Source of the DNA: Ruminococcus sp.
Lineage (GTDB): Bacteria; Bacillota; Clostridia; Oscillospirales; Ruminococcaceae
Reading direction: 5' to 3'
Assembly (NCBI GenBank): GCA_017525915.1
Contig: JAFXSC010000015.1
Location: 39,932-103,931 of the forward strand
Length of the DNA: 64,000 bases
The notes under the pieces were generated by a model. That model did no database searches. It worked only from the letters and a program-made list of their open reading frames with translations, and was not told where the DNA came from. Position 1 is the first letter of the stretch. Every line of letters starts with the position of its first letter. The translations under genes were made by a program, and so were the position numbers. Positions 6,208 through 64,000 of the stretch are shown here, in pieces.

Positions 6208-6440
6208 TGAAAATTGTAACCCTTGTAGAGAATACCTGCGGACATCAGGATTGTATCTCTGAACACGGACTTTCGCTCTATATCGAGACTGAAAAGCACA
6301 AGCTTCTCATTGACACAGGACAGACCGACGCAGTTGTAAAGAATGCGGAAGTCCTCGGCATAGAACTCTCATCGGAAATGCTCCCGACCGCGTTATCACC
6401 GGCTTCCACATGATGAAGAAGGAAGGCGAGCATATGCACC
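6207..6440 (+). pseudogene. Internally deleted metallo-beta-lactamase-fold hydrolase
   Basis: The start overlaps the stop of the DUF134-NifX gene. The N-terminus (MKIVTLVENTCGHQD, SEHGLSLYIETEKHKLLIDTGQ) is typical of metallo-beta-lactamase-fold hydrolases encoded beside NifX-like genes. After about 55 codons the frame changes, and another frame gives [18 protein letters not shown], which resembles the C-terminus of the same family. The HxHxDH metal site and the whole middle are absent, so this is an internal deletion. Directly after it the sequence turns into a pectate lyase fragment on the other strand. Confidence 0.7.
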
Positions 6441-6756
6441 AAACGTGTAATTTATCAGCGTTATACCGTCATCGGGAGCAGTGTGACCGGCAACGTAGAC
6501 ATCGCCGCCGTCATCGGGAATACAAAGTACTCTTTCGAGGGGGATAACTCCGCAGACATCGAACACTATCGTCCTTGCACCCTTCATGGTCTCGAGACCG
6601 TAGCGGAGAGACTCCTCGCCGTCGTCGTTGAGGTTGGTAACGTGGTAGACATAACCGCGAATCCGGAATTGAAACGAACTGGGGCAGGCTTACAGCGTTA
6701 AGCATTACTGCGGTGGCAAAAAGAACTGCAAGCAGCCTGATTTTACCTGTACTTAT
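6438..6756 (-). pseudogene. Fragment of a PL1 pectate lyase gene with intact promoter region
   Basis: On the minus strand, a signal-peptide-like stretch ([20 protein letters not shown], starting at ATA where ATG is expected) is followed, after a deletion and frame change, by [15 protein letters not shown]-like sequence that matches the intact PL1 protein at 60-63 kb ([39 protein letters not shown]). The DNA upstream keeps a 20-base leader stretch and a promoter box shared with the intact gene. It is a paralogue reduced to signal peptide plus a small piece of the catalytic domain. Confidence 0.8.
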
Positions 6757-6823
6757 AACGATCTCTCCTGTAAAATAATAGTGAACGAAATTATCTGTAA
6801 CAATTATATTGCACTATTTAATC

Positions 6824-6862
6824 TCTCAATAGCATTTTGTGAACAGAACATGACATTTTTAG
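6824..6862 (-). promoter_or_regulatory. Relic of the CAZyme regulon promoter (box D)
   Basis: On the minus strand CTAAAAATGTCA (6851-6862) lies 21 bases upstream of TTGAGA (6824-6829). The intact xylanase, pectate lyase and metallopeptidase operons have CTAAAAATGCAA at the same 21-base distance from their -35. The box is two bases away from theirs and the promoter serves a broken gene. Confidence 0.6.
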
Positions 6863-6961
6863 CACAATGCCATTCTTGACAGTAACGGTTGACTTGCCGA
6901 CTTTGCAGTGTAATAATGTGAACGAGGTATGTTGGGCGAATACAGATAATGGAGTAATTGT

Positions 6962-9797: not shown

Positions 9798-10679
9798 CTG
9801 GCTCCTCTGTAATCTGAATTGCTTGGGAGTTATCCCATGATACCTTTTGAATATCCGTATGAAATGGCTGCAATCCGAAAAACCTGTTTTGCTGCTTATA
9901 TACGAGAGATCGTGATCGGTGAACAGCAGGTATTCCTCCGCTTTGTACAAACGCATACGTTCGATATAGTCCTTGCAGCTCATGCCGTACATATCACGGA
10001 ATTTTACTGCAAACCCTGAATAGCTCATGTGGCACTTTTCCGCTATATCGCTCACTCGGATGTTATCTTCAAGGCTGCTGTCTATGTATTCGGCTATGTT
10101 TTCGATACCGTAACTGTCCGCCGCTTTTATAGGACATTCACTTATGTCAAGTCCGGCAGCGAGCCAATACCTTACGATGCCGAAAATCAGCCTGTATATC
10201 TGCGAACGCAGAATAACGTCCCTGCCGTACAGACAGCTTTTCATCTCATCAATACAGTTGAAAAAGATCTGGCGACTTTGAAATGAGCCGGTATCTTCGG
10301 AATCGAAATGGAACGGCATATTCTTTGAACGAGCGTAACTGAACAGACTCTGAACAGTAGGTGCATAGGGTGAAGTGTCGGGGAATTTCGCAGTATCAAA
10401 TTTGATACCGGCAAATTTTTTCAAGCCTCCGCTTGCAGAAAAGATAGAATGGACTGAATTGGGCGGAAAGATCATCAGTTCATTCTCATTTACTATGTAT
10501 GCCTTATTATCGCATATCGCTTCAGCGCTTCCTTCCAGAATAAGGATGAATTCGGCGAAATAGTGCCAGTGCGGCCTTACCGGAAAAGTGTTTTTGTCCG
10601 TTTCAAATATATACGCTTCGATTGGAGCGTTAAGGCTGTCCTGCTTTTCAAATAGTGAGTTCATAATTACAGTTCTCAT
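9789..10679 (-). CDS. AraC-family transcription regulator with cupin sensor
   Basis: 296 residues. The N-terminal 150 form an AraC_binding cupin (VRPHWHYFAEFILILEGSAE), the usual sugar or metabolite sensor. The C-terminal 100 carry two helix-turn-helix motifs (VSDIAEKCHMSYSGFAVKF and LSYISSKTGFSDCSHFIRIF, then GITPKQFR). It lies just upstream of, and on the same strand as, the epimerase-SDR operon, separated by a terminator, which makes those genes its likeliest target. Confidence 0.88.
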   Translation of the reverse strand: MRTVIMNSLFEKQDSLNAPIEAYIFETDKNTFPVRPHWHYFAEFILILEGSAEAICDNKAYIVNENELMIFPPNSVHSIFSASGGLKKFAGIKFDTAKFPDTSPYAPTVQSLFSYARSKNMPFHFDSEDTGSFQSRQIFFNCIDEMKSCLYGRDVILRSQIYRLIFGIVRYWLAAGLDISECPIKAADSYGIENIAEYIDSSLEDNIRVSDIAEKCHMSYSGFAVKFRDMYGMSCKDYIERMRLYKAEEYLLFTDHDLSYISSKTGFSDCSHFIRIFKRYHGITPKQFRLQRSQPQ

Positions 10680-49928: not shown

Positions 49929-50003
49929 ACAAAACTTGTTCAAAGCACATATCAGTCCTTTCACTATATAGATTACGTTAAGAATCAAATAAACAAATAC
50001 ACT

Positions 50004-50037
50004 GAAAATGGCAGCTCACGGAGGAACTGCCATTTTC
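50004..50037 (-). terminator. Terminator downstream of the metallopeptidase/dockerin remnant
   Basis: GAAAATGGCAG and CTGCCATTTTC pair over 11 bp. It lies just after the minus-strand dockerin remnant and probably ends transcription from the metallopeptidase gene. Confidence 0.7.
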
Positions 50038-50042
50038 ATTCT

Positions 50043-50174
50043 TCAATTGCTCAGTTTTTCAAGAAGCCCGAGCTTGAATTATTGGATAACAAGTGCGTCC
50101 ATATTTGTTACATCGACGCTGCCGTCAACGTCAGCGTTTATAGCAACTTTTTCGTCAAGAGCATATTTGTCATG
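50043..50174 (-). pseudogene. Dockerin remnant of a second subgroup
   Basis: The minus strand reads DKYALDEKVAINADVDGSVD, VTNMDALVIQ, a stop, then FKLGLLEKLSN. This is the second half of a dockerin related to the one at 63145-63324 but different from the GEF.ADLV dockerins. An in-frame stop interrupts it. The metallopeptidase gene ends at its border, so the present 3' end of that gene may have been created by fusion to this sequence. Confidence 0.7.
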
Positions 50175-52881
50175 ACAGCTGCATACACTCACGTTTCATC
50201 AGTATAAGGTCAAATACATCAAGTTTGCCGTTCTCTTGTAGGTCGCCGGCTTTCCAGTCAGCAAGCTCTGAATCCGGCTTTGAGAGCAGCCATTTCTGGA
50301 ATAATACCAAGTCAGCAACATTAAACTCACCGTCTGCGTTAACATCTCCGCGAATTCTTTCGCTTATGTTTTCGCTCTCAGTGTAATAGTATTCCGGTTC
50401 GGTGACCTCCTTGAAATTGACTCTGAAATAGTCCATTGAGCCATTCATTCCGTCGGCAATGAGATATTTTGCATTGCCACTGATTATATCAACAGGGTCT
50501 GCGTTCACTGTCCCCTTTGAGGTCTTTGTACCGCTTCCGTCATTGACAACAAGCTTTGCAGTATCACCGTCAAGAATAACGCTGACAGTTGTCCATTTTC
50601 CAGCAGTATAGGCATTTTCAGCAGTTACAGACTGCACTCCGCTGCCGTTGTCGATTGCAAATGTCAGGCTGCCATTTTCAGCGGTGAGTGACATAAACTT
50701 TTCATCATTACCGAAGCGGAAAATGGTGTTTTTCCTGTTGTCACGGAGAAGTATTGCGGTCTGATAATCAGCATCATGTAGAGCTGCATAAGAACTGTCG
50801 CCAACGAGATAGCTGCTGCCGTCAAATGTCAGTACGCCGTTTCCGCTGGTCAGTTTATCGTTCCAGGTGGGACTGCCGAATGCTGTACCGTAAGTCGAAG
50901 TGAATGTGTCTGCGGCGATGTGAGAACTGTCTGTATCGAATTCAAGAGCGGCATACTGTCCGTCAATAAACGGACGCTTCAGTGCATAGTCTTCAAAGCT
51001 CGCCCAGCCGTATATTGAACCCTTCTGAAGCTTTCTGCCGGTATCGTCATAATAGTCGCCGTCAGGCATTGCCTGACCTGATGCAGCGCCGTTTGCAAGT
51101 CCGTATGCTACGCCCTTGACAGTTGCATTTCCGCTGACACTATAAGTGTTGAATACAAGTCCGCTTTCTATCACACGGGCATTGTCAGAAACAACAGAAT
51201 CGCCCATAACGCCTGCATAGTCAGCTACGATAGCATTATCCCTGACCTGCGCCCTCTCAGCTACGACAGCGTGTCCAGTCACAATTGCATTTCCGGATAC
51301 CTTTGCACTTCCGGAAACGATCGCGTGTCCGTCTATCCTTGCATTTCCGGTCACTGTGGCATATCCGAGGACTTTTGCGTCCCTGCCGACATAAACTGAA
51401 TCATCAACAGTTGCGGTATTGGCTACAAATCCGCCGCCGTTGGAGTGTCTTCTGCCGGATGATTCATTAATGCTGTAAAATGACTGCTTGATGTCCGCAC
51501 CTTCAATAGTAACGCCGTAAGGATAACGGTTTTTACCGAGAAACGGAGCGTGGTTCTCGTCAAACTCGCCTTCACTGAACATATACTGCACGCCGTACTT
51601 CTGCCATGTATCGCTGTCGGGAGTAGCTGTAACTGTCAGATATGCAGCGGTATCATTTCCGCCGAAGGTCATCGTTGCTGTCTCGCCGGATTTGAAAAGG
51701 TCAGAGTATCTGGTAGTGCCGTCACGCTGTTCAACAGCTATGCAAGCCCGCCAGTCTGCTCCCTTGATATTTGTCAGTCCGTCAAGCTTTACGGTAATTA
51801 TGCTGCCGGTAACTTCAAGCGGAACTATATTCACGCCGAACTGCTGCGGCGCACGTTCAGTCGGGACAGTGTAGTAGTTCTCAGCCTTTGTGCTTTTTTC
51901 GAGGAGAGTATATATCTCGCCCCAGTTCCATTCGCCCCGGTTCAACAGCTCTGCTTGTCGAGCCTGATAGTCGCTCTTGTGTGCAAAATCGAGAGTTGCG
52001 AGACGCTTAGCATAATTGCCGAGCGTTTCCTTCATATCTGCACCGGAGAGCCTCTCGATCTCAAGGTACGGATACTCATCGACCTTGCCCTGCTGCATAA
52101 GGTCTTTCACGAAACTGCTGCCATAGCCGGGGAGATCGTCCGGATTCTCGGTGATATACTGCAAAAACGCCCACGCAGCATAGTTATCGCGTCCGAGAAT
52201 AGGAGTGAAGCAGAGATTCTTCATATAGGTCTCGAAGTAGTCCGTTACTCCCGAAACATCTGCCCACTGCTTGTAATAGTCCGAGTACAGGAACTGCTCA
52301 CGGTACCAGTTTGCGATTGCCTCCCACAGGGACTGCACATACTTGTTATTGTTCCAGCCAAGCTGATGTGCTGTTACAACGTGTCCGAATTCGTGGGGCA
52401 GTACCCAAGATGGATTCGGTGAATTCTGCATTGCTCCGACACAGCAGAACATAAACGCATAGCCCTGATTATCATAGCCCATATATGCCCAATCATCGGC
52501 AAAAGGTGACAGTCCTGTGCCGGAGATATAGAAATTCACCTTGTACTGCTTTCCGTCACGGAGACTAAGATTTGTCGATTGCGTAGGCGGCTCCATATGC
52601 AGGTCATTCATATAGACGTCCCAGCAAGCCTCAAGATTCTTTGCATTTTCCTCCAGGAAAGCCTGTGTGACCTTTGCAGAGTCGGCACCGCTCTTGCCCC
52701 AGATGAACTGGAAATGCTCAGATTCCCAGCGGTTTACGTCCTCGTTTGCACACCATATATCCCGTGTGGCAAGGAAATCGGCAGCAACTGCCACATAGCT
52801 GTATGGCACTACCGGAAGTGCGACTGCTGTAACTGCACCTGCACTCACAAATGCAACGAGCTTTCTGAACCATTTTGACAT
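50170..52881 (-). CDS. Secreted metallopeptidase-like protein (DUF6055/Svx-like) with beta-helix, LamG and dockerin
   Basis: 903 residues. Signal peptide to about 34; a peptidase-like domain to about 430 with HEFGH at 163-167 (VLPHEFGHVVTAHQLGW); left-handed beta-helix repeats at about 510-590 (VSGNAIVTGHAVVAERAQVR); a LamG/concanavalin-like domain at about 680-830; and a dockerin at 843-900 ([20 protein letters not shown]). The catalytic domain resembles Svx/AvrXca-type proteins of plant-associated bacteria, so a plant cell-wall glycoprotein target is plausible. It has the regulon box in its promoter. The end ECMQLS is unusual and abuts a dockerin remnant. Confidence 0.82.
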   Translation of the reverse strand: MSKWFRKLVAFVSAGAVTAVALPVVPYSYVAVAADFLATRDIWCANEDVNRWESEHFQFIWGKSGADSAKVTQAFLEENAKNLEACWDVYMNDLHMEPPTQSTNLSLRDGKQYKVNFYISGTGLSPFADDWAYMGYDNQGYAFMFCCVGAMQNSPNPSWVLPHEFGHVVTAHQLGWNNNKYVQSLWEAIANWYREQFLYSDYYKQWADVSGVTDYFETYMKNLCFTPILGRDNYAAWAFLQYITENPDDLPGYGSSFVKDLMQQGKVDEYPYLEIERLSGADMKETLGNYAKRLATLDFAHKSDYQARQAELLNRGEWNWGEIYTLLEKSTKAENYYTVPTERAPQQFGVNIVPLEVTGSIITVKLDGLTNIKGADWRACIAVEQRDGTTRYSDLFKSGETATMTFGGNDTAAYLTVTATPDSDTWQKYGVQYMFSEGEFDENHAPFLGKNRYPYGVTIEGADIKQSFYSINESSGRRHSNGGGFVANTATVDDSVYVGRDAKVLGYATVTGNARIDGHAIVSGSAKVSGNAIVTGHAVVAERAQVRDNAIVADYAGVMGDSVVSDNARVIESGLVFNTYSVSGNATVKGVAYGLANGAASGQAMPDGDYYDDTGRKLQKGSIYGWASFEDYALKRPFIDGQYAALEFDTDSSHIAADTFTSTYGTAFGSPTWNDKLTSGNGVLTFDGSSYLVGDSSYAALHDADYQTAILLRDNRKNTIFRFGNDEKFMSLTAENGSLTFAIDNGSGVQSVTAENAYTAGKWTTVSVILDGDTAKLVVNDGSGTKTSKGTVNADPVDIISGNAKYLIADGMNGSMDYFRVNFKEVTEPEYYYTESENISERIRGDVNADGEFNVADLVLFQKWLLSKPDSELADWKAGDLQENGKLDVFDLILMKRECMQLS

Positions 52882-52923
52882 TGTATCCCTCCAGTCATAA
52901 TCTTCACGTTCATTGTGATTTTA

Positions 52924-52985
52924 AGTATACCACGCCTGCTGTGTGAGGTCAATGGCAGTTCCTATTGAAAACATTGCATTTTTAG
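52924..52985 (-). promoter_or_regulatory. Promoter and regulon box C (metallopeptidase gene)
   Basis: On the minus strand CTAAAAATGCAA (52974-52985) lies 21 bases before TTGACC (52947-52952), then 17 bases and TATACT (52924-52929). Box, spacing and promoter match those of the xylanase and pectate lyase operons. Confidence 0.8.
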
Positions 52986-52992
52986 TACAAAA

Positions 52993-53018
52993 CCGGCAGG
53001 GTATTTTACCTCTGCCGG
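52993..53018 (-). terminator. Terminator of the xylanase gene
   Basis: CCGGCAG and CTGCCGG pair, with a T-rich stretch following on the minus strand. It sits between the xylanase stop and regulon box C. Confidence 0.75.
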
Positions 53019-53024
53019 AATGAT

Positions 53025-54821
53025 TTACTGTTCAAATAATGCTCGTCTCATAATCATAAGGTCGAAAACATCAAGCCTGCTGTTTTTGCTAAGATCGCCG
53101 GCTTTCCAGTCAACAAGTTCGGCATTTTCAGTTCCAAGCAGCCATTTCTGCATCAGTACAAGATCTGCGACACTGAATTCACCGTCGCTGTTGATGTCTC
53201 CGGTCCTGGATGTTGAATCTGCCGGTCCAATGCCGTCAATGATCGAATAGAAGCATGGTTTTGCGGTGTAATCCTCATTGAATAAGAGCGGATACTTGCT
53301 TGCACGCCAGCTCATATCATCGGTAGTGCCCCAGAATACAACAGCTGAAACACTGTCCTTATATTTGACGATGACGTCCATAATATCCGAATAATACTGT
53401 GCCTGTTCCTCGAATTTATCTGCGCTGCTTATCATCTGGTCGAGCTCGGTTATCTGCACATCAAGACCTGTTGCTGCAAACATACTGAGCGCCTTCTCAT
53501 ATACGTTAGCAGTCGGGAATACGTCCGTGCCTAAATGGGACTGCATACCGATACCGTCAATGTAGTGAGAGTCAGAATTGATCTCCTCAGTCAGCGCAAC
53601 AATCGCCTCACGCTTTCCGGGCATATACTCATTGAAGTCGTTGTAATAGAGCTTGCAGCCCTCTGGAGCGTACTTCTTTGCAAATTCAAATGCGGGCTTG
53701 ATAAAGGAATTATCGCCGAAAACCTTTACCCACGGAGACTTCGAACTGCCATCCTCCTGAGAACCGGGCTGACGTGCAGAACCGTCATCGAGCAGACACT
53801 CATTTACAACGTCCCAGGCATAGAATTCAACGTCAGGATATTCCTCCTTGACTGCCGCAAAGACGTTTTTGATGTAGTTCTCCATACGCACAAGCATTTT
53901 CTCTTTTGATACCCACTCGCCATCAGGATCGTAGTTCTCCTTGAAGAACCATGTCGGAGTCTGCTGGTGCCAGATAAGAACGTGTCCGCGTACCGGAATT
54001 CTATTTGCACGAGCAAAATTTAGGATCGAACTTGCGCTTGCAAGGCTTATCTGCGGATTTTCGTCATCTCCTGCTTCAGCAAGAGCAAGGCAGGCTTTCT
54101 GGTCGAGAAGTGCATCGGGCTTCATTTCGTTTCCGGCTGTGATAGAATTGAAATGCTTCAGAATAAGCTCCTTAGTAGAAGCCGGTGCAAGTTCCTTTGT
54201 CGTACAGGCTGTACCTATTTTGAAATAGTCTGAGTAAACATCCCTGAGGGAAGGAATGTCACTCTCCGGGTGATATACTGGTGCAGTTTTCAGTGTGAAA
54301 TCGTCAATATAGATATTGTCCGAGCCGCCTTCAAAATAGACGAATACATCTGTCCATTCTTCAGTGAAGCTCACTTTCAGGTTAGAGACTTCCTGCCAGC
54401 CGTTGCCGTTGAGATTTGCAAGATTCTCATAATGCTGCTCGCCTGCTGCATCGGTGTACTGAAAGCTGACAGTCACGCTTGTGTACCACTGTCCCATTGC
54501 TGAACAGCTCACAAGATATGCAATTCCCGGCTCGCACTTGTCATCAAGTCGGAAAGCAGGACCGTTCCACGACTTTGAGCGTTCGCTTGCACAAAGGCAG
54601 TGAGTACCGGAAACTGCATTTTCCTCGCTTGCTGTTATAACGGTAGTATCCCTGTCGCCGCGGTTTGTCCACGCTGATACATCACCGTCCTCAAAGTCAG
54701 AGGAATAGATGATAACCGTTTCGTCGGTTTCTTCAGCATTGGTAACTACTGACGGCAGCGATGATACCGACAGACTCAGTGCCACTAATCCGGCAGCAAA
54801 ATATGTTGCCTTTTTCTTCAT
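53025..54821 (-). CDS. GH10 endo-beta-1,4-xylanase with CBM22 and dockerin
   Basis: 598 residues. Signal peptide (about 1-29), a CBM22-type xylan-binding domain (about 36-180: SDFEDGDVSAWTNRGD), the GH10 barrel (about 190-530) with acid/base Glu341 in AWDVVNECL and nucleophile Glu459 in QITELDQ, and a dockerin (539-595: GDINSDGEFSVADLVLMQKW). It cuts xylan chains outside the cell, probably bound to a scaffoldin or surface cohesin. It has the regulon box 21 bases upstream of its -35, and the LacI/AraC regulator is the next gene upstream on the same strand. Confidence 0.95.
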   Translation of the reverse strand: MKKKATYFAAGLVALSLSVSSLPSVVTNAEETDETVIIYSSDFEDGDVSAWTNRGDRDTTVITASEENAVSGTHCLCASERSKSWNGPAFRLDDKCEPGIAYLVSCSAMGQWYTSVTVSFQYTDAAGEQHYENLANLNGNGWQEVSNLKVSFTEEWTDVFVYFEGGSDNIYIDDFTLKTAPVYHPESDIPSLRDVYSDYFKIGTACTTKELAPASTKELILKHFNSITAGNEMKPDALLDQKACLALAEAGDDENPQISLASASSILNFARANRIPVRGHVLIWHQQTPTWFFKENYDPDGEWVSKEKMLVRMENYIKNVFAAVKEEYPDVEFYAWDVVNECLLDDGSARQPGSQEDGSSKSPWVKVFGDNSFIKPAFEFAKKYAPEGCKLYYNDFNEYMPGKREAIVALTEEINSDSHYIDGIGMQSHLGTDVFPTANVYEKALSMFAATGLDVQITELDQMISSADKFEEQAQYYSDIMDVIVKYKDSVSAVVFWGTTDDMSWRASKYPLLFNEDYTAKPCFYSIIDGIGPADSTSRTGDINSDGEFSVADLVLMQKWLLGTENAELVDWKAGDLSKNSRLDVFDLMIMRRALFEQ

Positions 54822-54915
54822 AATTAAAATATCCCCTTTGCAGTGCTAATCAGAGCCGCCTAAAGCTCTGAACTGCTGCTTATGAATGTGGATCTCTGAT
54901 CAGGATTCCATAATG

Positions 54916-54977
54916 AATATATCACATTATTCCTTTGACATCAATAGCAATTCGTGTTCTAAATATTGCATTTTTAG
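54916..54977 (-). promoter_or_regulatory. Promoter and regulon box A (xylanase gene)
   Basis: On the minus strand CTAAAAATGCAA (54966-54977) lies 21 bases before TTGATG (54939-54944), then 17 bases and TATATT (54916-54921). A terminator for the regulator gene lies immediately before the box. Confidence 0.82.
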
Positions 54978-54981
54978 CATC

Positions 54982-55010
54982 AAAAAAGGCAGAGGTATTT
55001 CACCTCTGCC
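54982..55010 (-). terminator. Terminator of the regulator gene
   Basis: GGCAGAGGT-GAAAT-ACCTCTGCC on the minus strand, followed by six T residues. Confidence 0.85.
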
Positions 55011-55018
55011 GAAATTTT

Positions 55019-57229
55019 TTATTGTTTGTTTTTGCGGTACTGTGTCGGAGTAAAGCCGGTTTCCTTTTTGAATACACGCATAAAGTTGTAATAGTCATAA
55101 CCGCATTTCTCAGCTATATCAGGCAGCAGCATCGAAGTAGTGGCAAGCAGTTTTTTTGCGCTGTTCAGGCGGCTTTTCTGAAGGTCCTGCATAAAACTGA
55201 TATTGAACACTTTTGCATACAGCTTATGGAAATATGACTTGCTGATGTTTAGCCTTCCACTGCACATTTCGCCGTTCCAGTCGGTTTCAGGGTGCAGGAA
55301 TATTTCTCTTCTGAGTTCAAACAGTTCTGAATAGTGTATGTGCTCGGAGAGCTGATCGTTCATATCGCTTGCCAGCTTGTCGGTCATCGCTTTTACGGTC
55401 TCAGCTGCATCATCGGGACTGAGATAAGTTTCAGCCGGCAAAACCTTAGTCTCAGTTCTGGCATAGACCATATACTTTTCTTCCGTAGAAATGCTGTTCC
55501 TCCATACGCTTTCCTCGACCTGTTTAAGATAAGCAGATATGCGTTTCTCAGGAGAATGCCCTGAACCTATTATGACAAAGCTCTTGTCTCTGTATTTGAA
55601 TACACGCTCACGGCTGTTGCAGCACTTTGAAAGAATATCAGCAAATGATGCAAGGTACTTGTCGCTTTCCACATATCCGCTGTCGTTCTCGATATGCCGC
55701 AGTCCGCCTGCTGTGACAGCGATAATGTACATCTGGTCGCCGTTTGATCTGGCAGCATCCTGCATTTCCGTCCAAATACCCCGGCAGTTTTCAAAGATGT
55801 ACAGACCTGTCAGTTCATCTCTTGACTGAGAAAGCTTTTGACGGTAAAGCAGCCGTTTAAGCTCATTCTGGGTACTCAGGAATTTCAGCGCATTGTTGAC
55901 CTCCCGGCAATAGCGGATATAGTCCATATTGAAATCATCTATGCTTTCGTTCACCTCAAGGGCGATATAGCCGTAGCACTGATCCTGAAAATGCACCGGC
56001 AGTAAAAATGTCGATGTGATGCTCTCTTTATCGAGGGGAACGGGGAGTATCTGTTCAAGCGGAAAGCTCATTCTGCTGCCCTCAGAGCCGATAAGGTACA
56101 TCGTGTCCGAATATCCGTCAGTGCGGTAGCCTCTGCCGGTCTCAGTCTGAAAAACGGTGTCCCAGTCAGAGCAAAGACAAAGGAACAGTCGCTCCTTATT
56201 AAAATTGTCCCTGTCCATAAACTTATACTGCAATTCAAACATTTTCAGCACAAGGTCATTGAGCGTTTCGGTCTCGTAAAGAGCAGCCGAAACAGTGCAG
56301 TCGAGTATGCCCTCGTCTGCCATTACCTCATCATATACAATGAATCTGTCATTTTCATTCTGTGAATTGCAACCGCAGCTTTCACGGCACAAAAGTATGC
56401 CCTTTTCGAGCTTAGTTGGAACTGCTGTTTCGCCAGTCATAGCTTCATATAGCCTGCATACAGCATTTCTTCCAAGATCTTCCTGCGAGGTCTGATAAGT
56501 CGTGATCGCGGGGACGTGCAGACGCGCCTCGGTGAAACCGTCATAGCCGGTCACACGGATATTGTCGGGAACAGAAATGTTCCTCTCGGCAAGAGCGTCG
56601 CAGAGTGCAATTGCCATTGTGTCATTGGCGCAGACAACTGCGTCCGGCATTTCTCTTGTGCCGTCAGCTATTTCGTCCGCAAGCTTTTTTGCCGCCCATA
56701 TCCAGAAGTCTCCGTAGATAATATCATTATCGCCGACCGGAATCCCGGCTGACTTCATAGCATTGACGAAGCCCTCAGCCCGGTTATGAGCGACTTGCGT
56801 TGTGTCAGGTCCGGTAAGACAGATTAGCTTCCGGCAGCCGTGACCGTATATGAGATGGAGCGTTATCTCGGACATCTCGCTGCTGTCGTCATACCAGACA
56901 GGTATGCCCATATCGCTTTCCATTCCTATCCGGACTACCGGCTTATTGAAATTCTCTTTCAGGTAGCTGTCGATGTATTCGTAGAAATATTCAGATGCAA
57001 AGGTGTATGGAGCATAGACTATGCCGTCAAGCTGCGAGGAGCTTATGGCGCAGAAAAGGTTCTTCTCACCGGACCGTACCTTATCGTTGTAGCATTCCTC
57101 ATTGAGAGTGTAAATGAAGGTGCTGTATCCGAGCTGTCGTGCCTGTTCAAGTATGCCGGAAAGCAGCCGCTTGTTGGTCTTTTTGTATATCCTGCCCATA
57201 ATTATGCCGATGTGCTTTTTTCGTTCCAT
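55019..57229 (-). CDS. Hybrid regulator: LacI-type sugar sensor, GGDEF-like linker, AraC-type DNA-binding domain
   Basis: 736 residues. Residues 1-285 form a LacI/GalR-type periplasmic-binding-protein fold (HIGIIMGRIYKKTNKRLLSG, VVCANDTMAIALCDALAERN, IRVTGYDGF) without a LacI helix-turn-helix in front. About 300-480 is a GAF-like region, about 490-610 a degenerate GGDEF-like domain (no GGDEF motif), and 640-736 an AraC-type pair of helix-turn-helices (LPDIAEKCGYDYYNFMRVFK, TGFTPTQYRK). It is encoded among the CAZyme operons, and its own promoter carries their box in reverse over the -35. I infer that it activates these operons on sensing a sugar and represses itself. Confidence 0.88.
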   Translation of the reverse strand: MERKKHIGIIMGRIYKKTNKRLLSGILEQARQLGYSTFIYTLNEECYNDKVRSGEKNLFCAISSSQLDGIVYAPYTFASEYFYEYIDSYLKENFNKPVVRIGMESDMGIPVWYDDSSEMSEITLHLIYGHGCRKLICLTGPDTTQVAHNRAEGFVNAMKSAGIPVGDNDIIYGDFWIWAAKKLADEIADGTREMPDAVVCANDTMAIALCDALAERNISVPDNIRVTGYDGFTEARLHVPAITTYQTSQEDLGRNAVCRLYEAMTGETAVPTKLEKGILLCRESCGCNSQNENDRFIVYDEVMADEGILDCTVSAALYETETLNDLVLKMFELQYKFMDRDNFNKERLFLCLCSDWDTVFQTETGRGYRTDGYSDTMYLIGSEGSRMSFPLEQILPVPLDKESITSTFLLPVHFQDQCYGYIALEVNESIDDFNMDYIRYCREVNNALKFLSTQNELKRLLYRQKLSQSRDELTGLYIFENCRGIWTEMQDAARSNGDQMYIIAVTAGGLRHIENDSGYVESDKYLASFADILSKCCNSRERVFKYRDKSFVIIGSGHSPEKRISAYLKQVEESVWRNSISTEEKYMVYARTETKVLPAETYLSPDDAAETVKAMTDKLASDMNDQLSEHIHYSELFELRREIFLHPETDWNGEMCSGRLNISKSYFHKLYAKVFNISFMQDLQKSRLNSAKKLLATTSMLLPDIAEKCGYDYYNFMRVFKKETGFTPTQYRKNKQ

Positions 57230-57252
57230 AATGCTCCACCTCGCTTTTTTTC

Positions 57253-57281
57253 AGTATATCATACAATGACTAAAATTGCAA
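57253..57281 (-). promoter_or_regulatory. Regulator promoter with reversed box E over the -35
   Basis: On the minus strand the -35 is TTGCAA (57276-57281), then 17 bases and TATACT (57253-57258). The bases TTGCAATTTTAG (minus strand) are the reverse complement of CTAAAATTGCAA, one base different from the CTAAAAATGCAA box of the operons. A bound regulator would cover the -35, consistent with autorepression. Confidence 0.7.
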
Positions 57282-57315
57282 GGTTTTGTTCACCATTTTC
57301 AATATCTGAAACGAC

Positions 57316-57346
57316 AAATGCCGCAGCACTCAAAGCTGCGGCATTT
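57316..57346 (-). terminator. Terminator of the PL1-PL11 operon
   Basis: AAATGCCGCAGC and GCTGCGGCATTT form a 12-bp stem with a 7-base loop. The T run on the minus strand is weak, so some readthrough into the regulator gene is possible. Confidence 0.7.
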
Positions 57347-57409
57347 CTGATCTGTCCCACTTTTGCTAATTACCCATTATGAAATCTCCGGATGTGCAGT
57401 CGGAGAATA

Positions 57410-59962
57410 TCACCTGTTTAAAAGTTCACGCCTCATCAATACAAGGTCGAACACGTTAAGTCTGTCATCTTCGCAGAGGTCACCGGCTTTCCAGTCAGCA
57501 AGGTCTGAGTCCGGCTTTGAGAGCAGCCATTTCTGCAATATTACAAGGTCTGCAATGCTGAATTCTCCGTCCGCATTTACATCTCCTCGCACCGTCAATT
57601 CACCGGCATTTGATGCGATAACAATGTAATTCATACAGTATGCAGACTGCCCATTAGCGCCGAGAGTGAACTTGTCACCGGCTTTGAGCGGAATCGAGTA
57701 CAGCTCAAACGTAACGTCATTTGAAGTCCTGATAACTGCGTCTGATTTTACTGCACTGTCAAGCCATTCAGGGACTTTCTCCACACGGCTGTCAAGTCCA
57801 ACATAAAGCGTTATATACTCCGCAGCGGTAAGCTCCGCCTGAGTCTGTGAGGAAGCCTTTGCATCGCATGGAGTGAGTACGATCTCAGCGCCTTTCAGCT
57901 TTGCAGGCAGCTCGGTAACCGCACAGCGTTCAGCATTTCTGTCGCCGAAGAGCACATCACCTGTATCGAGTGAGCTGTCGGTTCCCCACGAATTATAATA
58001 TGTTGTATCTATGACATCAATATTTACAAACCTGCCCTCTATCGGGTCATAGGTTATCGGCTCAACATTTCCGCCGAGAACGGTACACTTCGGACGTGTA
58101 GGCATATCGTAGCCTGTTCCGAGGAAGAAGCTTGTGTGCGGCGGCTGATTGTATGCCGTATTCTGCGCTGACACCTGAACGCGGTACTGCGGGTCGTGCA
58201 TAAGGCACTGAACACGGTAATCGGTATCGTAGGTGGTGGCGTAGATTCGTATGCCTGTACCGTCAGCCTTGCGGACAATCAGCTCCTCGCGCCAGTCACC
58301 GAAAATGTCAGCGCTGAGGCAAGGCGTCCCCTTGGTCGTATTGCAGGTGTAATATCCGTCAGTCGAGAGCAAAGTTGTTATAGTAGTCTTGCCTGCGTCG
58401 CCTGTCAGCTTCGAGATGGTTGCAGGCGAATCGGTATAGCCGTCGAGGATCTCACGCTCGAGGTCGCCGTCCCAGTAGGAGAGGAAGTTTATTGCAGGGC
58501 GGCGGCAGTTCAGCGTTGAACTGTCAACACCCTTGACCTCATTGCCGTTGCCCCATAATTCAGCACCTGGATTGCCAGCCCATACGTTATCGGCACAGCA
58601 GCGTCCGGTATCGCCTGAACCGTTGTTGCGGAAGATTGTTTTTCCGGTATCCGCATCAATGAGTGAAACGCCATAGGGTTTATCTTCGTGGCAGGTCCAG
58701 ACCTCGATACCGGGATTTGTCGGGTCAAGGTCGCCAACGTGCAGAGCATCGCCGTGACCGGTATTCGTGTTCCATTTGAGCGTGCCGTCGTGGTCTATGC
58801 AGGTCGAACCTGTGATTATCTCGTGCTTGCCGTCGTTGTCAACATCAGCGACCATTGAGTTGTGGTTGCCGTCACCGTAGCCGGGAGTTGACGAGCTTGT
58901 ACCTGTGTCAAAAGTCCAGAGCTTTTTCAGCTTCTTGTTCTCGACAGAGTACGCAGTTGCGGTCAGTCTGCCGTAATAGCCGCGTCCTGTGATAACGCTC
59001 GGGTGAACGCCGTCAAGGTACGCAACGCTTCCCCAGTAGCGCTCAACGCGGTTGAACTTGTCGGAGGTCTTGCCCCATTTTGTAGGGTCACCTCTGCCCG
59101 GCTCGTAGTTTACGGTATCAAGTGCCGCGCCTGTTGCTCCGTCAAAAAGCGTGTAAAACTCATTGCCCGAATAGATAAGACCGCTGCTGTCGCGGTACAC
59201 CTTTGAAGCATCACCGATGACCTTGCCGGTGCCGTCAACAGTGCCGTCCGAGGTCTTGCAGGTCATCTCGCACTTGCCGTCAAGGTCGAAATCGGCAACG
59301 TAAAACTGCGTATAATGTGCGCCTGCACGGATATTCACGCCGAGGTCGATGCGCCAGAGCTTCTGACCGTTCAGACGATAACAGTCGATATATACCTTGT
59401 CGGTCTTGCCCTTCTGGGAGTTGTCCTTGGAGGTGGAAGGATCCCACTTCACGAAAAGCTCATACACGCCGTCGCCGTCCACGTCTCCGACGCTCATATC
59501 GTTCGGGGAGTATGTACCGCCGTCCGAGCCCTTTGCAGGCTGATCGAGCTTTATGTCAAAATACGCATTATTCGATGTGAGCGAGCAATTGTCGCTTGTG
59601 AGCAGCTTTCCGCTCAATGTCAGGCACTCGACTTTGTACACGGACGACGAATTGCCGCCCTTATCGAGGAAACAGGTCGCACCGTTTGCTTTTTCAGTTG
59701 ATGTGTATATCAGTGTATTGTCGCGGTAAAGCTTGTATACTGCATCATCGGGGTCATTCGCAAGGAATCTCCAGTTGACAAGCATTCCCGCATCTGTTTT
59801 CACAGCACATATTCCTCGGTCGAGGTATTCGACTACCATATTGTCGGTATTGTTGAATGCAGTGTTATTTGCCGCCGCATCTGCGTACAACGATATGCCG
59901 TTCCACGATGAAAGACACATTGAAGCGGTAAGGCAAGCGGCAAGAATCCTATTGCAGTCCAT
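57410..59962 (-). CDS. PL11 rhamnogalacturonan lyase with shared module and dockerin
   Basis: 850 residues. Signal peptide (about 1-30), then the eight-bladed propeller typical of PL11 (VEYLDRGICAVKTDAGMLVNW, SVGDVDGDGVYELFVKWDPS, CLSADIFGDWREELIVRKAD). A 130-residue module at about 650-780 is nearly identical to one in the upstream PL1 protein, and a dockerin ends the protein ([20 protein letters not shown]). It cleaves the rhamnogalacturonan I backbone by beta-elimination. It starts 19 bases after the PL1 stop with GGGGG in front, so it is the second gene of a pectinolytic operon. Confidence 0.93.
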   Translation of the reverse strand: MDCNRILAACLTASMCLSSWNGISLYADAAANNTAFNNTDNMVVEYLDRGICAVKTDAGMLVNWRFLANDPDDAVYKLYRDNTLIYTSTEKANGATCFLDKGGNSSSVYKVECLTLSGKLLTSDNCSLTSNNAYFDIKLDQPAKGSDGGTYSPNDMSVGDVDGDGVYELFVKWDPSTSKDNSQKGKTDKVYIDCYRLNGQKLWRIDLGVNIRAGAHYTQFYVADFDLDGKCEMTCKTSDGTVDGTGKVIGDASKVYRDSSGLIYSGNEFYTLFDGATGAALDTVNYEPGRGDPTKWGKTSDKFNRVERYWGSVAYLDGVHPSVITGRGYYGRLTATAYSVENKKLKKLWTFDTGTSSSTPGYGDGNHNSMVADVDNDGKHEIITGSTCIDHDGTLKWNTNTGHGDALHVGDLDPTNPGIEVWTCHEDKPYGVSLIDADTGKTIFRNNGSGDTGRCCADNVWAGNPGAELWGNGNEVKGVDSSTLNCRRPAINFLSYWDGDLEREILDGYTDSPATISKLTGDAGKTTITTLLSTDGYYTCNTTKGTPCLSADIFGDWREELIVRKADGTGIRIYATTYDTDYRVQCLMHDPQYRVQVSAQNTAYNQPPHTSFFLGTGYDMPTRPKCTVLGGNVEPITYDPIEGRFVNIDVIDTTYYNSWGTDSSLDTGDVLFGDRNAERCAVTELPAKLKGAEIVLTPCDAKASSQTQAELTAAEYITLYVGLDSRVEKVPEWLDSAVKSDAVIRTSNDVTFELYSIPLKAGDKFTLGANGQSAYCMNYIVIASNAGELTVRGDVNADGEFSIADLVILQKWLLSKPDSDLADWKAGDLCEDDRLNVFDLVLMRRELLNR

Positions 59963-59981
59963 TCTAATATCCCCCTAAAAA

Positions 59982-62975
59982 TCAATTCTTTTCAAACAGT
60001 TCACGTCTCAATATCACAAGGTCGAACACATCAAGCCTGTCGTTTTCACTTAGGTCACCGGCTTTCCAGTCAGCAAGCTCTGAATCCGGTTTTGAGAGCA
60101 GCCACCTCTGCAAGAGTACAAGGTCTGCAATGCTGAATTCTCCGTCCGTATTTACGTCGCCGCGCACTGTCAGCTCATCGGTATTTGAAGCGATAATGAT
60201 GTAGTTCATACAGTATGCGGACTGTCCGTTTGCGCCGAGAGTGAACTTCTCACCGGCTTTGAGCGGAAGTGAGTACAGCTCAAATAATACGTCATTAGTA
60301 GTCCGGACTACTGCACCTGTTTTCACAGCGCAATTAAGCCATTCCGGAACTTTTTCCACACGGCTGTCAAGTCCAACATAAAGCGTTATATCCTCCTCAG
60401 CGGTAAGCTCCGCCTGAGTCTGTGAGGAAGCCTTTGCATCGCAGGGAGTGAGTACGATCTCAGCGCCTTTCAGCTTTGCAGGCAGCTCCGAAATTGCACA
60501 CCTGTCAGCAGTTCTGTCACCGAAAACAGTGTCTCCGACTTCAAGCGAAGTATCGACTGCCCAAGCGCTGTAATACGTTGTATCAAGCACTTCAACGCTG
60601 CTGATAAGCTTGCCTGTTATCGGTTCTCTTGTGACAGTGCCGTTGAACTCGACCGGATCACCTGCAAGCTCGTTGAGATACATTTCAAGGTTAGTGTAGT
60701 CATCGGCGGAAAGCGATACAATTGCACTGTCCTTTGCGTCATTCGGGTTCAGACCGTGCTCACTCTCCCACGCATCTGGCATACCGTCGCCGTCAGTATC
60801 GATCGGAGCAGTGCCGCCCTTGAAATTCTTTGCAGACGGATAGCCGCCAACATCGTTCTGGCTGTCGATTATGCCCTTGAGACCGTCACGGCTACCGGTG
60901 TATGTGTATGTGCCGTTCTTGACCTCATTTATGTAGCGCGAGTCGATATAGTCCCACTGAGGATAGTTGGCACCTGCACCTGCAATGACAGATTTATAGG
61001 CACTATCAGCCGTCTCAGTGATGACGTAGGACTCAAAGAACGGCTTGTCACTCTTGACGTCATTGCTGGTGGAATTCTTGCCGCCCGACTTTGCCTTGCC
61101 GCTCGACCACTCGTCAGCGCCCGCGTCAATGAGGATACTTCCGTTTTGAGCAGCCTTGACATTTCCGGACGCATAGAGTTTCTGCATATCGCCTGTGTTC
61201 AGCTCATTTCCGTCAACCGAAACAAGGTGCAGAGAGGTGTTTGACACCGAGCCTGCCTTGTAATAATTGTTCACGAACTGCACACGCCTTGCACCGCCGT
61301 CAGTCGTTCTGTCACGCCAGTTATAGACTACATTGTTGCGTATATCAAGCTGTCCGCCGTAGGTCACGCCGTCCTGTTCCATAGCGCCTGCCAGCGACCA
61401 GTTTCGACCGGTATTGTCGATGAGGAGATTGTGGTGGAACGAGCCGGTGTATCCACCGATCGAAGCCGCAAAAGCGTGGCGCTCCACATTGGAGCGGTCG
61501 TTGGCATCGTAGTGAACGGAGTTATTCAGCGATTCGCCGATGATGTTCCACTGGAAGGTCAGATTTGCCGCACTTCTGGAGCTGAATCCCTCATCGGTCG
61601 CCCACGAGATAGAGCAGTGGTCAACGATTGAATTATCGCAGCTGCTCATACCCATACCGCCCATTGATTTGCCCGAAACATCGCCAACTCTGGTGCGAAT
61701 GTCACGGATGATCACATCGCTTGACCCCATAGCGCCAAATGTATAATTGATGAGCGTGATACCGTCGCCGGGAGCGGTCTGTCCGGCAACATACACATCG
61801 CCGCCGTCCTCAGGAATACAAAGAACGCTTTCAAGCGGGATAACTCCACCCACATCGAAAACGATCGTCCTTGCGCCTTTAAGAGTTTCAAGACCGTAGC
61901 GGAGAGAGCCCTCACCGCTGTCATTGAGGTTTGTGACGTGATAGACATAGCCTCCGCGTCCGCCTCTGGCAAAACGACCGTAGCCCTCGGCAGTCGGGAA
62001 GGAAAGACGGTTTATCTGGAATGAATAAACAGTGCCTTTGACTGTGCCGTTTGCGTTGACCTCATCCACGCGCCAGTAATAGGTGGGAATTGAGGAATAT
62101 GTATCATCAAGGGCGTACTTTGTGCCGGTCTGATTGCCCTTGAATTCGGGTGAATTGCGGTCTGCACTGAACACCGAATCGTAGCTTGTGCCGATATACA
62201 CATCGTGGGACTGAGCGTTCTTGCCGGCATTCCACGAAAGTCCGTCAGCAATGTCGAGGTGAGCTTCCTGATCGGCAGGGTACATCTTAGATACGCCGTT
62301 CACAGGATCGCTGCCATCCAGTTCAAAGCCATTCAGCCACGCTACGTCCTGTCTGCCGCCGCCTTCAGGAGTGATAAGGATAGTCACGCTGCTTCCTGAC
62401 CAGGTGACATAGGAAATGCCTGCGTCGTTCTCGTCATTGACATTGGTGGGGCACTCAACTCCGGTCAGGACTTTCTTGCCGTTCACAGAAATGCTGAGCT
62501 TGCTGTTTGTGTAGCCGTCAGTGTTGCAGTGCCACATCTGCAAGGAGTGTTCGCCGTCAGTAAGACCGGATATTTCGAGCTTGAGTACACCGCCGTTGTC
62601 ACCGTCCTTGATCTTTGCGCCGTCCATAGTGAGACGCGGGTATATGCCGCTTTGGAGCTGCAATTTCTTGTTGTTTGCACCAGTGACATTGCTGCCGGCA
62701 CTTCCGCCGTTGGACAGTCTGAAATTGACATTGCCTACTGAATATTCAGCGGTACTGCCCTCTGCGAGCAGCCAGTTATTGGCATTTTTCGAGTACGAAG
62801 CCTTGCGCCCGTCATTCTTGTTTATGTCAACTCTTATGCGTGAGCCGGTGGTGAACGAAGCTGCATCTGCTGTGATTATATTTGAATCCTGAACATTTTG
62901 CGTCAGACTTACAGCGTTCAGCATCAAAGCGGCAGCTGAAAGAGCTGCAAGCATCTTTGTTCTTCCTGAACCCAT
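59982..62975 (-). CDS. PL1-type pectate lyase, modular, with dockerin
   Basis: 997 residues from the ATG at 62975 (GGGAGG in front; a frame 45 codons longer has no signal peptide at its start). Signal peptide, a carbohydrate-binding-like domain (VDINKNDGRKASYSKNANNW), an FN3-like segment, the parallel beta-helix lyase ([35 protein letters not shown]), a Ca-binding-like DTDGDGMPDAWE spacer, the 130-residue module shared with PL11, and a dockerin (GDVNTDGEFSIADLVLLQRW). It depolymerises polygalacturonate by beta-elimination. It is first in an operon with PL11 and has the regulon box. A broken paralogue lies at 6438-6756. Confidence 0.9.
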   Translation of the reverse strand: MGSGRTKMLAALSAAALMLNAVSLTQNVQDSNIITADAASFTTGSRIRVDINKNDGRKASYSKNANNWLLAEGSTAEYSVGNVNFRLSNGGSAGSNVTGANNKKLQLQSGIYPRLTMDGAKIKDGDNGGVLKLEISGLTDGEHSLQMWHCNTDGYTNSKLSISVNGKKVLTGVECPTNVNDENDAGISYVTWSGSSVTILITPEGGGRQDVAWLNGFELDGSDPVNGVSKMYPADQEAHLDIADGLSWNAGKNAQSHDVYIGTSYDSVFSADRNSPEFKGNQTGTKYALDDTYSSIPTYYWRVDEVNANGTVKGTVYSFQINRLSFPTAEGYGRFARGGRGGYVYHVTNLNDSGEGSLRYGLETLKGARTIVFDVGGVIPLESVLCIPEDGGDVYVAGQTAPGDGITLINYTFGAMGSSDVIIRDIRTRVGDVSGKSMGGMGMSSCDNSIVDHCSISWATDEGFSSRSAANLTFQWNIIGESLNNSVHYDANDRSNVERHAFAASIGGYTGSFHHNLLIDNTGRNWSLAGAMEQDGVTYGGQLDIRNNVVYNWRDRTTDGGARRVQFVNNYYKAGSVSNTSLHLVSVDGNELNTGDMQKLYASGNVKAAQNGSILIDAGADEWSSGKAKSGGKNSTSNDVKSDKPFFESYVITETADSAYKSVIAGAGANYPQWDYIDSRYINEVKNGTYTYTGSRDGLKGIIDSQNDVGGYPSAKNFKGGTAPIDTDGDGMPDAWESEHGLNPNDAKDSAIVSLSADDYTNLEMYLNELAGDPVEFNGTVTREPITGKLISSVEVLDTTYYSAWAVDTSLEVGDTVFGDRTADRCAISELPAKLKGAEIVLTPCDAKASSQTQAELTAEEDITLYVGLDSRVEKVPEWLNCAVKTGAVVRTTNDVLFELYSLPLKAGEKFTLGANGQSAYCMNYIIIASNTDELTVRGDVNTDGEFSIADLVLLQRWLLSKPDSELADWKAGDLSENDRLDVFDLVILRRELFEKN

Positions 62976-63021
62976 ATTGATACCTCCCGTTAACAAATTA
63001 TGAACGAAATTATCTATAACA

Positions 63022-63083
63022 AATATATCACACTGTATAACCACTATCAATAGCATTTTATATCCAAAAGCTTGCATTTTTAG
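63022..63083 (-). promoter_or_regulatory. Promoter and regulon box B (PL1-PL11 operon)
   Basis: On the minus strand CTAAAAATGCAA (63072-63083) lies 21 bases before TTGATA (63045-63050), then 17 bases and TATATT (63022-63027). It is identical in box and spacing to boxes A and C. Confidence 0.82.
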
Positions 63084-63104
63084 TTGTCTTACCGGTCGAT
63101 AGAA

Positions 63105-63138
63105 AATCACCTGCGGTTGAATTTAACCGCAGGTGATT
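63105..63138 (-). terminator. Terminator upstream of the PL1 promoter
   Basis: AATCACCTGCGGTT and AACCGCAGGTGATT form a perfect 14-bp stem with a 6-base loop; TTTTCT follows on the minus strand. It ended the gene now reduced to a dockerin remnant. Confidence 0.85.
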
Positions 63139-63144
63139 CTGAAT

Positions 63145-63324
63145 TTATGTGGATGATACGGAGAGCAAATTAATCAAACCAAGCTTGAACTGCTGTATTA
63201 TAAGTGCGTCCATATTTGTTACATCATCGCTACCGTCAACGTCAGCGTTTTTAGCACCCTTTTCATCAAGCGCATATTTGTCCGGATTTGAGATTGCCTG
63301 CATAATGCGTACTGCATCAGCCAT
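63145..63324 (-). pseudogene. Dockerin remnant of a lost gene
   Basis: 59 residues: MADAVRIMQAISNPDKYALD, EKGAKNADVDGSDDVTNMDA, LIIQQFKLGL, then a tail. It is the larger part of a dockerin of the subgroup also seen at 50043-50174. Upstream the sequence changes at about 63324 into an amidotransferase fragment on the other strand, so the enzyme it belonged to has been removed by a rearrangement. Confidence 0.75.
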
Positions 63325-63418
63325 GCTTATGGAGCCAAGCCTGCTCCATGAAGCTCTCAGGGACGTGAAGTATATGTGCGGTGAAGATGTTTATGAGAGC
63401 TATTGCGGCGCTTTTTAA
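63323..63418 (+). pseudogene. C-terminal fragment of a second class II amidotransferase
   Basis: 31 residues, MLMEPSLLHEALRDVKYMCG then EDVYESYCGAF, match the C-terminus of the amidotransferase at 25637-26614 (MLMEPSLLQEALNDIKFGAG ... YEEYCGVY). As there, a serine recombinase gene lies downstream on the same strand. The remainder of the gene is missing. Confidence 0.85.
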
Positions 63419-63544: not shown

Positions 63545-64000
63545 ATGGATAACAGGATCTATGGGTATGCTCGTGTTTCTACCAGAGAGCAGAATGAAGA
63601 TCGTCAGCTTGAAGCTCTCACCAAGTTCGGTGTGCCCGAGCAGAACATTATCATCGATAAGGCTTCCGGTAAGGATACAGAGCGTGAAGGCTATCAGTAC
63701 CTTAAGCGTCAGATACTCCGTAAGGGAGATACGCTCGTTATCAAGGAGCTTGACAGACTCAGTCGTAATAAAGCTGATATCAAGAGAGAACTGGAAGAGT
63801 TCAAAGCAGCAGGAGTACGTGTAAAGATACTCGACATTCCGACTACTCTTACGGACTTTCCACCAGATCAGGCTTGGATCTTAGAAATGATAAACTCGAT
63901 CCTTATAGAGGTTCTCGGCAGCATTGCTGAAAACGAGCGTAATAAGATACGTTCTCGTCAACGTGAGGGAATAGAGGCTGCAAAGAAGCGGGACGTTAAA
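63545..64000 (+). CDS. Serine recombinase (resolvase family), partial
   Basis: 152 residues to the window edge. Catalytic Ser12 is in GYARVST; KELDRLSRNKADIKREL and SIAENERNKIRSRQREGIEA are typical of the catalytic domain and E helix. GGAAAGGA precedes the ATG. It differs markedly from the recombinase at 25 kb, yet both follow an amidotransferase C-terminus. The C-terminal DNA-binding part lies outside the window. Confidence 0.88.
   Translation, partial: MDNRIYGYARVSTREQNEDRQLEALTKFGVPEQNIIIDKASGKDTEREGYQYLKRQILRKGDTLVIKELDRLSRNKADIKRELEEFKAAGVRVKILDIPTTLTDFPPDQAWILEMINSILIEVLGSIAENERNKIRSRQREGIEAAKKRDVK

Follow-up and report, generated by a model that had tools for sequence, protein, structure and literature searches.

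The window analysed here, a 64,000-base stretch of contig JAFXSC010000015.1 (positions 39,932 to 103,931) from a Ruminococcus sp., carries on its minus strand a cluster of dockerin-bearing enzyme genes with a regulator gene among them and a predicted operator before each enzyme transcription unit. Read in the direction of transcription, the order is operator, pectate-lyase-like-dockerin gene, rhamnogalacturonan lyase family 11 (RGL11)-dockerin gene; then the regulator; then operator and GH10-dockerin gene; and finally operator and DUF6055-dockerin gene. The genes are as follows.

59982..62975, minus strand: pectate-lyase-like protein with dockerin, first gene of the operon (Pfam dockerin; PDB 9buj pectate lyase, E 1.8e-33)
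57410..59962, minus strand: RGL11 rhamnogalacturonan lyase with dockerin, 19 bp after the lyase gene (RGL11_C, E 8.9e-186)
55019..57229, minus strand: regulator with LacI-type periplasmic-binding-protein domain, middle region, degenerate GGDEF and AraC helix-turn-helix (HTH) (Pfam)
53025..54821, minus strand: CBM4_9-GH10 xylanase with dockerin (GH10, E 4e-85)
50170..52881, minus strand: DUF6055 - laminin-G-like - dockerin protein (DUF6055, E 7.9e-40)

The product of the first operon gene had no match to a Pfam lyase family, and its match to NCBIfam PelZ (93 bits) lies under the cut-off of 840. The DUF6055 protein also matches NCBIfam Svx/AvrXca (140.9 bits, far under the cut-off of 625) and hexapeptide-repeat acyltransferase models.

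The predicted operator-promoters and the remnants that belong with them are given below, with E-values from R1, a sequence-only model built from 9 promoters of the related loci L124-L128. PL denotes the pectate-lyase-like gene.

63072..63083, minus strand: distal half-site CTAAAAATGCAA of the PL-RGL11 operon promoter, exact 12-mer (R1 E 8.0e-13 at G000:C31:102949-103014)
63047..63059, minus strand: proximal half-site AAAATGCTATTGA of the PL-RGL11 promoter, one 21-bp period downstream and running into the -35
63022..63050, minus strand: PL-RGL11 promoter, -35 TTGATA, 17-bp spacer, extended -10 TATATT
54966..54977, minus strand: distal half-site CTAAAAATGCAA of the GH10 promoter, exact 12-mer (R1 E 2.5e-10)
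54941..54953, minus strand: proximal half-site GAATTGCTATTGA of the GH10 promoter
54916..54944, minus strand: GH10 promoter, -35 TTGATG, 17-bp spacer, extended -10 TATATT
52974..52985, minus strand: distal half-site CTAAAAATGCAA of the DUF6055 gene promoter, exact 12-mer (R1 E 1.2e-8)
52949..52961, minus strand: proximal half-site GAACTGCCATTGA of the DUF6055 gene promoter
52924..52952, minus strand: DUF6055 promoter, -35 TTGACC, 17-bp spacer, extended -10 TATACT
57270..57281, plus strand: single half-site, reversed, covering the regulator's -35 (R1 half-match, E 0.0041)
6796..6867, minus strand: decayed promoter before a lyase remnant (R1 E 1.8e-4; matrix 12.6 bits)
6435..6756, minus strand: remnant of a second copy of the pectate-lyase-like gene (tblastn; parts match residues 1-33 and 342-415)

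The three exact boxes share one layout, in which 21 bases are followed by a TTGA-- hexamer, a 17-base spacer and TATACT or TATATT with a TG one base 5'. An earlier note on this DNA had described the 12-bp box at these three positions with the same distances, and its coordinates and spacing were correct. The distance from box to start codon is 92 bp for the DUF6055 gene, 144 bp for GH10 and 96 bp for PL. In a promoter scan of 50000-63400, a TG 5' of the -10 was present in 4 of 18 promoter-like pairs, namely the three enzyme promoters and the regulator's own. At the lyase remnant, whose second part is 89% identical to the product of the pectate-lyase-like gene (tblastn), the distal half-site (6851-6862) carries 2 mismatches; the 21-base distance named in the earlier note and the proximal half-site are intact, while the -35/-10 spacer measures 15 bases and not 17.

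The box proved to be a real element and at the same time half of an operator, where the note had seen a complete one. Alignment of the sites revealed that TGC-Y-ATTGA is conserved as well; it follows the box at a period of 21 bp and extends into the -35. The 9-base core of the box matches itself best at offset 21. This self-identity reached 74% in the three window sites alone (next best offset 56%) and 70% when 6 relatives' sites were added, all of them selectable by the 12-mer alone with <=1 mismatch (next best 46%); as a control, 26 other near-copies of the 12-mer in the own genome gave 31% at that offset. An earlier offset test with 14 sites (64% vs 46%) was partly circular, because the pattern used to select most of its sites already contained both halves, and for the same reason the 21+6+17 geometry common to 14 of 14 sites is in part a product of the selection. 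What is conserved is TGC-A, recurring after 21 bp, and not an A-tract. Judged by its letters, the 12-mer is the upstream half of a putative AraC-type direct repeat with a 21-bp period, and the whole element has the appearance of an AraC-family site, with two direct-repeat half-sites at a period of ~21 bp touching the -35.

A chance origin of the window sites was rejected on three grounds, namely the R1 E-values, a comparison of weight-matrix scores with simulated windows, and controls for a composite pattern. The weight matrix, trained on 10 relatives' sites, gave 63.3, 53.7 and 43.3 bits for the window sites and 12.6 for the relic; the highest value in 60 simulated windows was 5.0. The composite pattern matched 10 times at <=3 mismatches in six close loci (84,890 bases) against 1 match of the reversed control, and 5 against 0 without mismatch; in 14 distant loci (219,440 bases) it matched 12 times at <=3 mismatches against 2 of the control. 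In its strict form without mismatch it occurred in 3 of 396 family genomes and its reversed control in none; the 3 matches in the own genome are the three window promoters, and the other two genomes hold 1 match and 2 identical matches. The relatives' training sites were located with a pattern derived from the window, so that recovery of the window sites by R1 or the matrix is not fully independent. The existence of the sites in the relatives, their positions and a new promoter on contig C42 are independent of the origin of the pattern.

This new promoter came from a search of the own genome (3,091,626 bases in 67 contigs) with R1, in which 150 of 621 first-look candidates were scored and 70 matches were obtained at E <=10. 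The five best were the three window promoters, C42:169446-169511 (E 2.5e-7) and the relic (1.8e-4). The C42 promoter, which could not be found with the 12-mer, precedes a GH5-dockerin gene and belongs to a second copy of the switch (C42:167850-171874; L142:7351-11375), where a 71%-identical paralog of the regulator lies divergent from the GH5-dockerin gene with a tandem operator and a reversed box. The distal half-site of this target has drifted to GACAAACTGCAA, with repeat and geometry retained. Further down, rank 6 (C42:234559, E 0.0035) has a good proximal half only and rank 8 (C34:156249, 0.0050) the promoter part only, and ranks 7 and 9 are half-site matches at the regulator promoters of the window (0.0041) and of the C42 paralog (0.011).

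The exact 12-mer CTAAAAATGCAA is present in four copies in the own genome, three at the window enzyme promoters and one reversed over the promoter of the paralogous regulator. The earlier note had reasoned that a box frequent across the genome and unconnected to carbohydrate-active enzyme genes would speak against a regulon, and these four positions favoured its proposal. Sites did concentrate before enzyme genes, as it had expected, and elsewhere they recur before pectin enzymes beside regulator orthologs. The own genome has 97 dockerin matches, some sharing one frame; compared with this number, four enzyme promoters (150 of 621 candidates scored) make the regulon look small and local, and a genome-wide cellulosome regulon was not supported.

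The regulator was used as a query against 60 relatives, 32 of which matched at E <=1e-60; among the 396 family genomes, 21 matched at E <=1e-95 (two candidates scored per genome), and genome contigs gave 3 loci. In every locus with a 60-79% identical regulator (L124, L125, L126, L127, L128 and L193) the site precedes a pectate-lyase-like gene. In L125 it is also found before an RGL11 gene and a Pectate_lyase_4-dockerin gene, and L127 and L128 each have a divergent pair of sites for two lyase-like genes. Neither regulated lyase-like product of L127 (L127:778-7225), a locus from a related genus, has a Pfam dockerin match, so that in this locus the site follows the pectin enzyme and not the dockerin, and the switch may drive non-cellulosomal enzymes as well. 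The regulated lyase-like proteins of L127 end in an fn3-like stretch, below threshold. The view that the targets are dockerin enzymes holds for the window operons and not for L127, and the description as a pectin/xylan regulon stands for pectin, whose enzymes recur as targets, while the link to xylanase was seen only here among the loci examined. Xylanase and GH5 targets were found only in the own genome; several of the relatives' loci are cut off by contig ends.

Strong sites are nearly confined to regulator loci. One strong site outside them precedes a dockerin GDSL esterase in another genome (G437, L194:4429-7392), with R1 E 2.7e-5 and a matrix score of 38.4 against a null maximum of 10.4. 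As the same genome holds a regulator ortholog (~41%) on another contig, the esterase gene is a candidate member of the regulon outside its regulator's locus. Two side observations concern the relatives' loci. A DUF6055 or related dockerin gene adjoins the regulator orthologs in L096 and L124, and L126 and L193 (G452, contigs C27 and C26) are two lyase-regulator loci in one sheep-rumen metagenome-assembled genome, reflecting either duplication or strain mixture.

The earlier note had called the regulator a LacI/AraC hybrid. Pfam bears out a LacI-type sensor (Peripla_BP_3, E 1.6e-25, residues 128-284) and a C-terminal double-HTH AraC domain (HTH_18, E 2.1e-15; HTH_AraC, E 6.1e-15), with a degenerate GGDEF between them and no match to a LacI HTH, the sensor-domain matches beginning near residue 2-5. 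In this protein of 736 residues, ~370 lie between sensor and HTH, including a weak GGDEF match at 471-570. The catalytic motif of diguanylate cyclases is GG(D/E)EF; the corresponding site, read by eye, is RDKSF in the window regulator, and neither GGDEF nor GGEEF appeared there in any of 20 ortholog alignment rows. LacI-type sensor and AraC HTH were present in 20 of 20 aligned orthologs and the GGDEF match in 17. Pfam gave no receiver-domain match. The family profile matched E. coli XylR (PDB 4fe4 and 4fe7) over the HTH (E 4e-16), and the AraC HTH in the PDB was matched as well. Because of the extra domain region between sensor and HTH, we regard the regulator as XylR-like and not as a XylR ortholog. 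A fold prediction from a three-row alignment was too poor (mean predicted local distance difference test score 50.3, predicted template modelling score 0.27) and was not used.

The regulator's own promoter has its -35 (TTGCAA) at 57281-57276 and its -10 at 57258-57253. The one-mismatch reversed box that the earlier note had placed over this -35 was found at 57270-57281, covering TTGCAA. In all six regulators that are >=70% identical (window, C42 paralog, L124, L125, L126 and L193; the C42 and L193 promoters were read by eye), the -35 (TTGCAA or TTGCAT, 17 bases before TATACT or TACACT) falls within a reversed box that has no more than 1 mismatch.

Taking these data together, we consider it probable that the regulator encoded at 55019-57229 is a local one-component XylR-like activator which senses a pectin oligosaccharide, represses its own gene and acts through these sites. 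Binding by this regulator, its ligand, activation and autorepression are the parts that we infer. The LacI-type N-terminal domain would bind a pectin breakdown product, most likely an oligosaccharide derived from galacturonate or rhamnogalacturonan; a pectin ligand is suggested because genes of the pectate-lyase-like and rhamnogalacturonan-lyase kinds make up most of the recurring targets. Acting as a dimer, the two C-terminal AraC domains would then occupy the direct repeat with its 21-bp period, whose distal half-site is CTAAAAATGCAA plus a T-rich tail and whose proximal TGC-Y-ATTGA extends into the -35. Since the proximal half-site runs into the -35, we propose that RNA polymerase is recruited to a weak extended -10 promoter, and the PL-RGL11 operon, the GH10 xylanase gene and the DUF6055 gene would be switched on. 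At the regulator's own promoter the reversed half-site holds the -35 (TTGCA-), for which reason we propose that polymerase is blocked there and the level of the regulator limited. By analogy with AraC and XylR, the protein should activate at the tandem repeat and repress over its own -35.

Several results weigh against this proposal or restrict it. The 12-mer alone at <=1 mismatch is near chance, with 30 matches in the own genome against 20 of the control; 3 of these 30 are the enzyme promoters and 2 lie reversed on regulator promoters, and the other 25 showed by eye no -35/-10 pair at the fixed distance. Weaker sites may have been missed, because R1 scored only 150 candidates per genome (621 were found here). 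The GH10 target and the GH5 target on C42 are not pectin enzymes, and R1 also matched (E 6.6e-5), in G430, before a gene with no visible link to pectin. A further candidate target lies at C42:234559-234610 (L148), where a good proximal half-site, -35 and -10 with a poor distal half-site stand ~350-400 bp before a dockerin frame of 314 amino acids. At the regulator's own promoter, the second half-site, 21 bp further on, is weak and poorly conserved, so that the conserved feature is a single strong half-site over the -35, and how the protein binds to one lone half-site is a guess. Among 16 more distant regulators, only four (L129, L130, L138 and L096) had a reversed box on the -35, with 1-3 mismatches.

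The distant loci add to these points. In the set of 14 (L129-L141 and L096; regulators 35-50% identical), two TGC-type half-sites at the best matrix match, or at one near the regulator, were present in only 6. Their targets are lyase-like genes in L132 and L133, an RGL11-dockerin gene in L138 and a DUF6055 gene in L096, and in L134 and L136 the site lies beside the regulator with no clear target. The matrix score in L138 merely equals the null maximum, and L134 has no good -35/-10 at the expected place. The matrix scan gave no convincing site in the other 8. Matches in L130 and L131 exceed their nulls without having two half-sites, and the matrix must therefore be scoring promoters in part.

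The alternative that survives best, although we find it unlikely, is that the window promoters are controlled chiefly by the 71% paralog on C42, or that every site is used by both proteins. The two have almost the same HTH region, so the paralog could bind the same sites, and the fourth exact box lies on the paralog's promoter. However, each regulator adjoins its own targets, the distal half-site of the GH5 target has diverged to GACAAACTGCAA, and in the relatives it is a regulator that adjoins the lyase gene.

Much less probable is a local regulator whose main effect is to keep the enzyme operons repressed when no sugar is present, in the fashion of LacI. Such a role would suit the LacI-type sensor domain and a proximal half-site that extends into the -35, but the HTH is of the AraC type, with no LacI HTH reported, and the position of the sites, upstream of weak promoters with an invariant 21+17 spacing, suits activation.

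A slightly poorer chance still is given to a site that belongs to an unrelated transcription factor or is an A-tract UP element, with the proximity of the regulator incidental. The box is indeed A-rich and just upstream of the -35, and the strong L194 site is outside any regulator locus seen. Against this, the letters conserved are the repeated TGC-A described above and not A-tracts, strong sites other than that of L194 adjoin regulator orthologs, and among the genomes searched, the 8 of the same genus in which the regulator is <=42% identical or not close gave no R1 match better than 1e-4.

That the sites are remnants of one recently duplicated promoter and not a maintained operator is hardly credible even though the relic at 6851 derives from a second copy of the pectate-lyase-like gene, since the boxes of the three intact sites are 82-100% identical while their flanks (22-30%) and -35/-10 spacers (21-36%) are not, and the lack of long flanking similarity rules out promoter duplication for these three.

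Like the regulator described here, E. coli XylR (4fe4, 4fe7) has a LacI-type sensor followed by an AraC HTH of recognisable homology, and it activates from direct repeats. It differs in size (392 residues in the 4fe4 chain against 736) and in the degenerate GGDEF found here; XylR controls xylose catabolism, whereas the predicted targets here are pectin and xylan enzymes that act outside the cell. At araI1-I2, E. coli AraC binds a direct repeat of two half-sites at a 21-bp period, of which the second reaches the -35, though its sensor domain differs from the LacI-type one of our regulator. The core of the half-site presumably resembles the araI1 core on the opposite strand. The switch is ordinary in kind, with a conserved operator of known type, and it is the domain make-up of the regulator that is unusual.

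Among cellulosome producers, the AraC-family regulator XydR of the Clostridium cellulolyticum XydS/XydR pair regulates clustered dockerin-enzyme genes; in the passages available, its effector domain bound upstream DNA in electrophoretic mobility shift assays, and direct and inverted repeats are common to its two target regions, close to the predicted -35 (PMC3572039). Unlike the regulator here, for which no receiver-domain match was obtained, XydR is a receiver-domain response regulator that works with a partner kinase; its binding regions lie 237-599 bp before start codons, and the same passages define no consensus operator (PMC3572039). In Caldicellulosiruptor bescii, passages of another study predict PecR, PecR2 and HemR as local AraC-family regulators of pectate lyases or pectin-oligosaccharide transporters, a likeness to our regulator in family, locality and predicted pectin targets (PMC8579813). 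The parts seen of a transcriptome study of Ruminococcus albus 7 left regulon definition to future work (PMC4300822), and a 2024 review of hemicellulase gene regulation, as far as its main text was available, makes no mention of Ruminococcus (PMC10766802). No prior description of the box or the regulator was found in the searched literature, which leaves out most subscription journals, and there the exact 12-mer letters occurred in four papers, whose titles point to unrelated subjects (C. elegans, dogs in two of them, and RNA-RNA interaction software). The switching of fibre-enzyme genes in ruminococci appears to be little described in the searchable part of the literature. A defined operator, a regulator and a list of promoters make this regulation directly testable, and with the same operator model the targets of related regulators can be predicted.

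With its degenerate GGDEF insert, the regulator prompts one to ask what purpose a dead cyclase domain serves in a protein that senses sugar. Tentatively, and as a possibility that we would not call probable, the regulator may be one of many one-component sensors that combine a LacI-type sensor, a degenerate GGDEF and an AraC HTH and form a large family, as yet without a name, among Ruminococcus-like bacteria that degrade fibre. Each member would read a single plant-polysaccharide fragment and control a few extracellular enzyme operons, using a 21-bp direct repeat of its own. If this were true, such sensors would together set the enzyme and cellulosome composition, as hybrid two-component systems do at Bacteroides polysaccharide loci, and the dead GGDEF would be a dimer frame or a nucleotide sensor.

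Some further features of the window deserve mention. An intrinsic-terminator-like hairpin lies between the regulator gene and the GH10 operator; terminator-like sites in the region number 12 against a shuffle mean of 11.4, i.e., without enrichment.

54988..55010, minus strand: intrinsic-terminator-like hairpin

Another AraC-type HTH, 31% identical to the regulator over 75 residues, is encoded at 9813-10037, ~3 kb from the decayed lyase promoter. The BspA-type leucine-rich-repeat protein at 29582-32002 has its dockerin match in mid-protein (residues 411-465) and not at an end. Finally, a reading frame at 63545-64000, 0.5 kb from the first operator, resembles by eye a serine recombinase and runs off the contig end.

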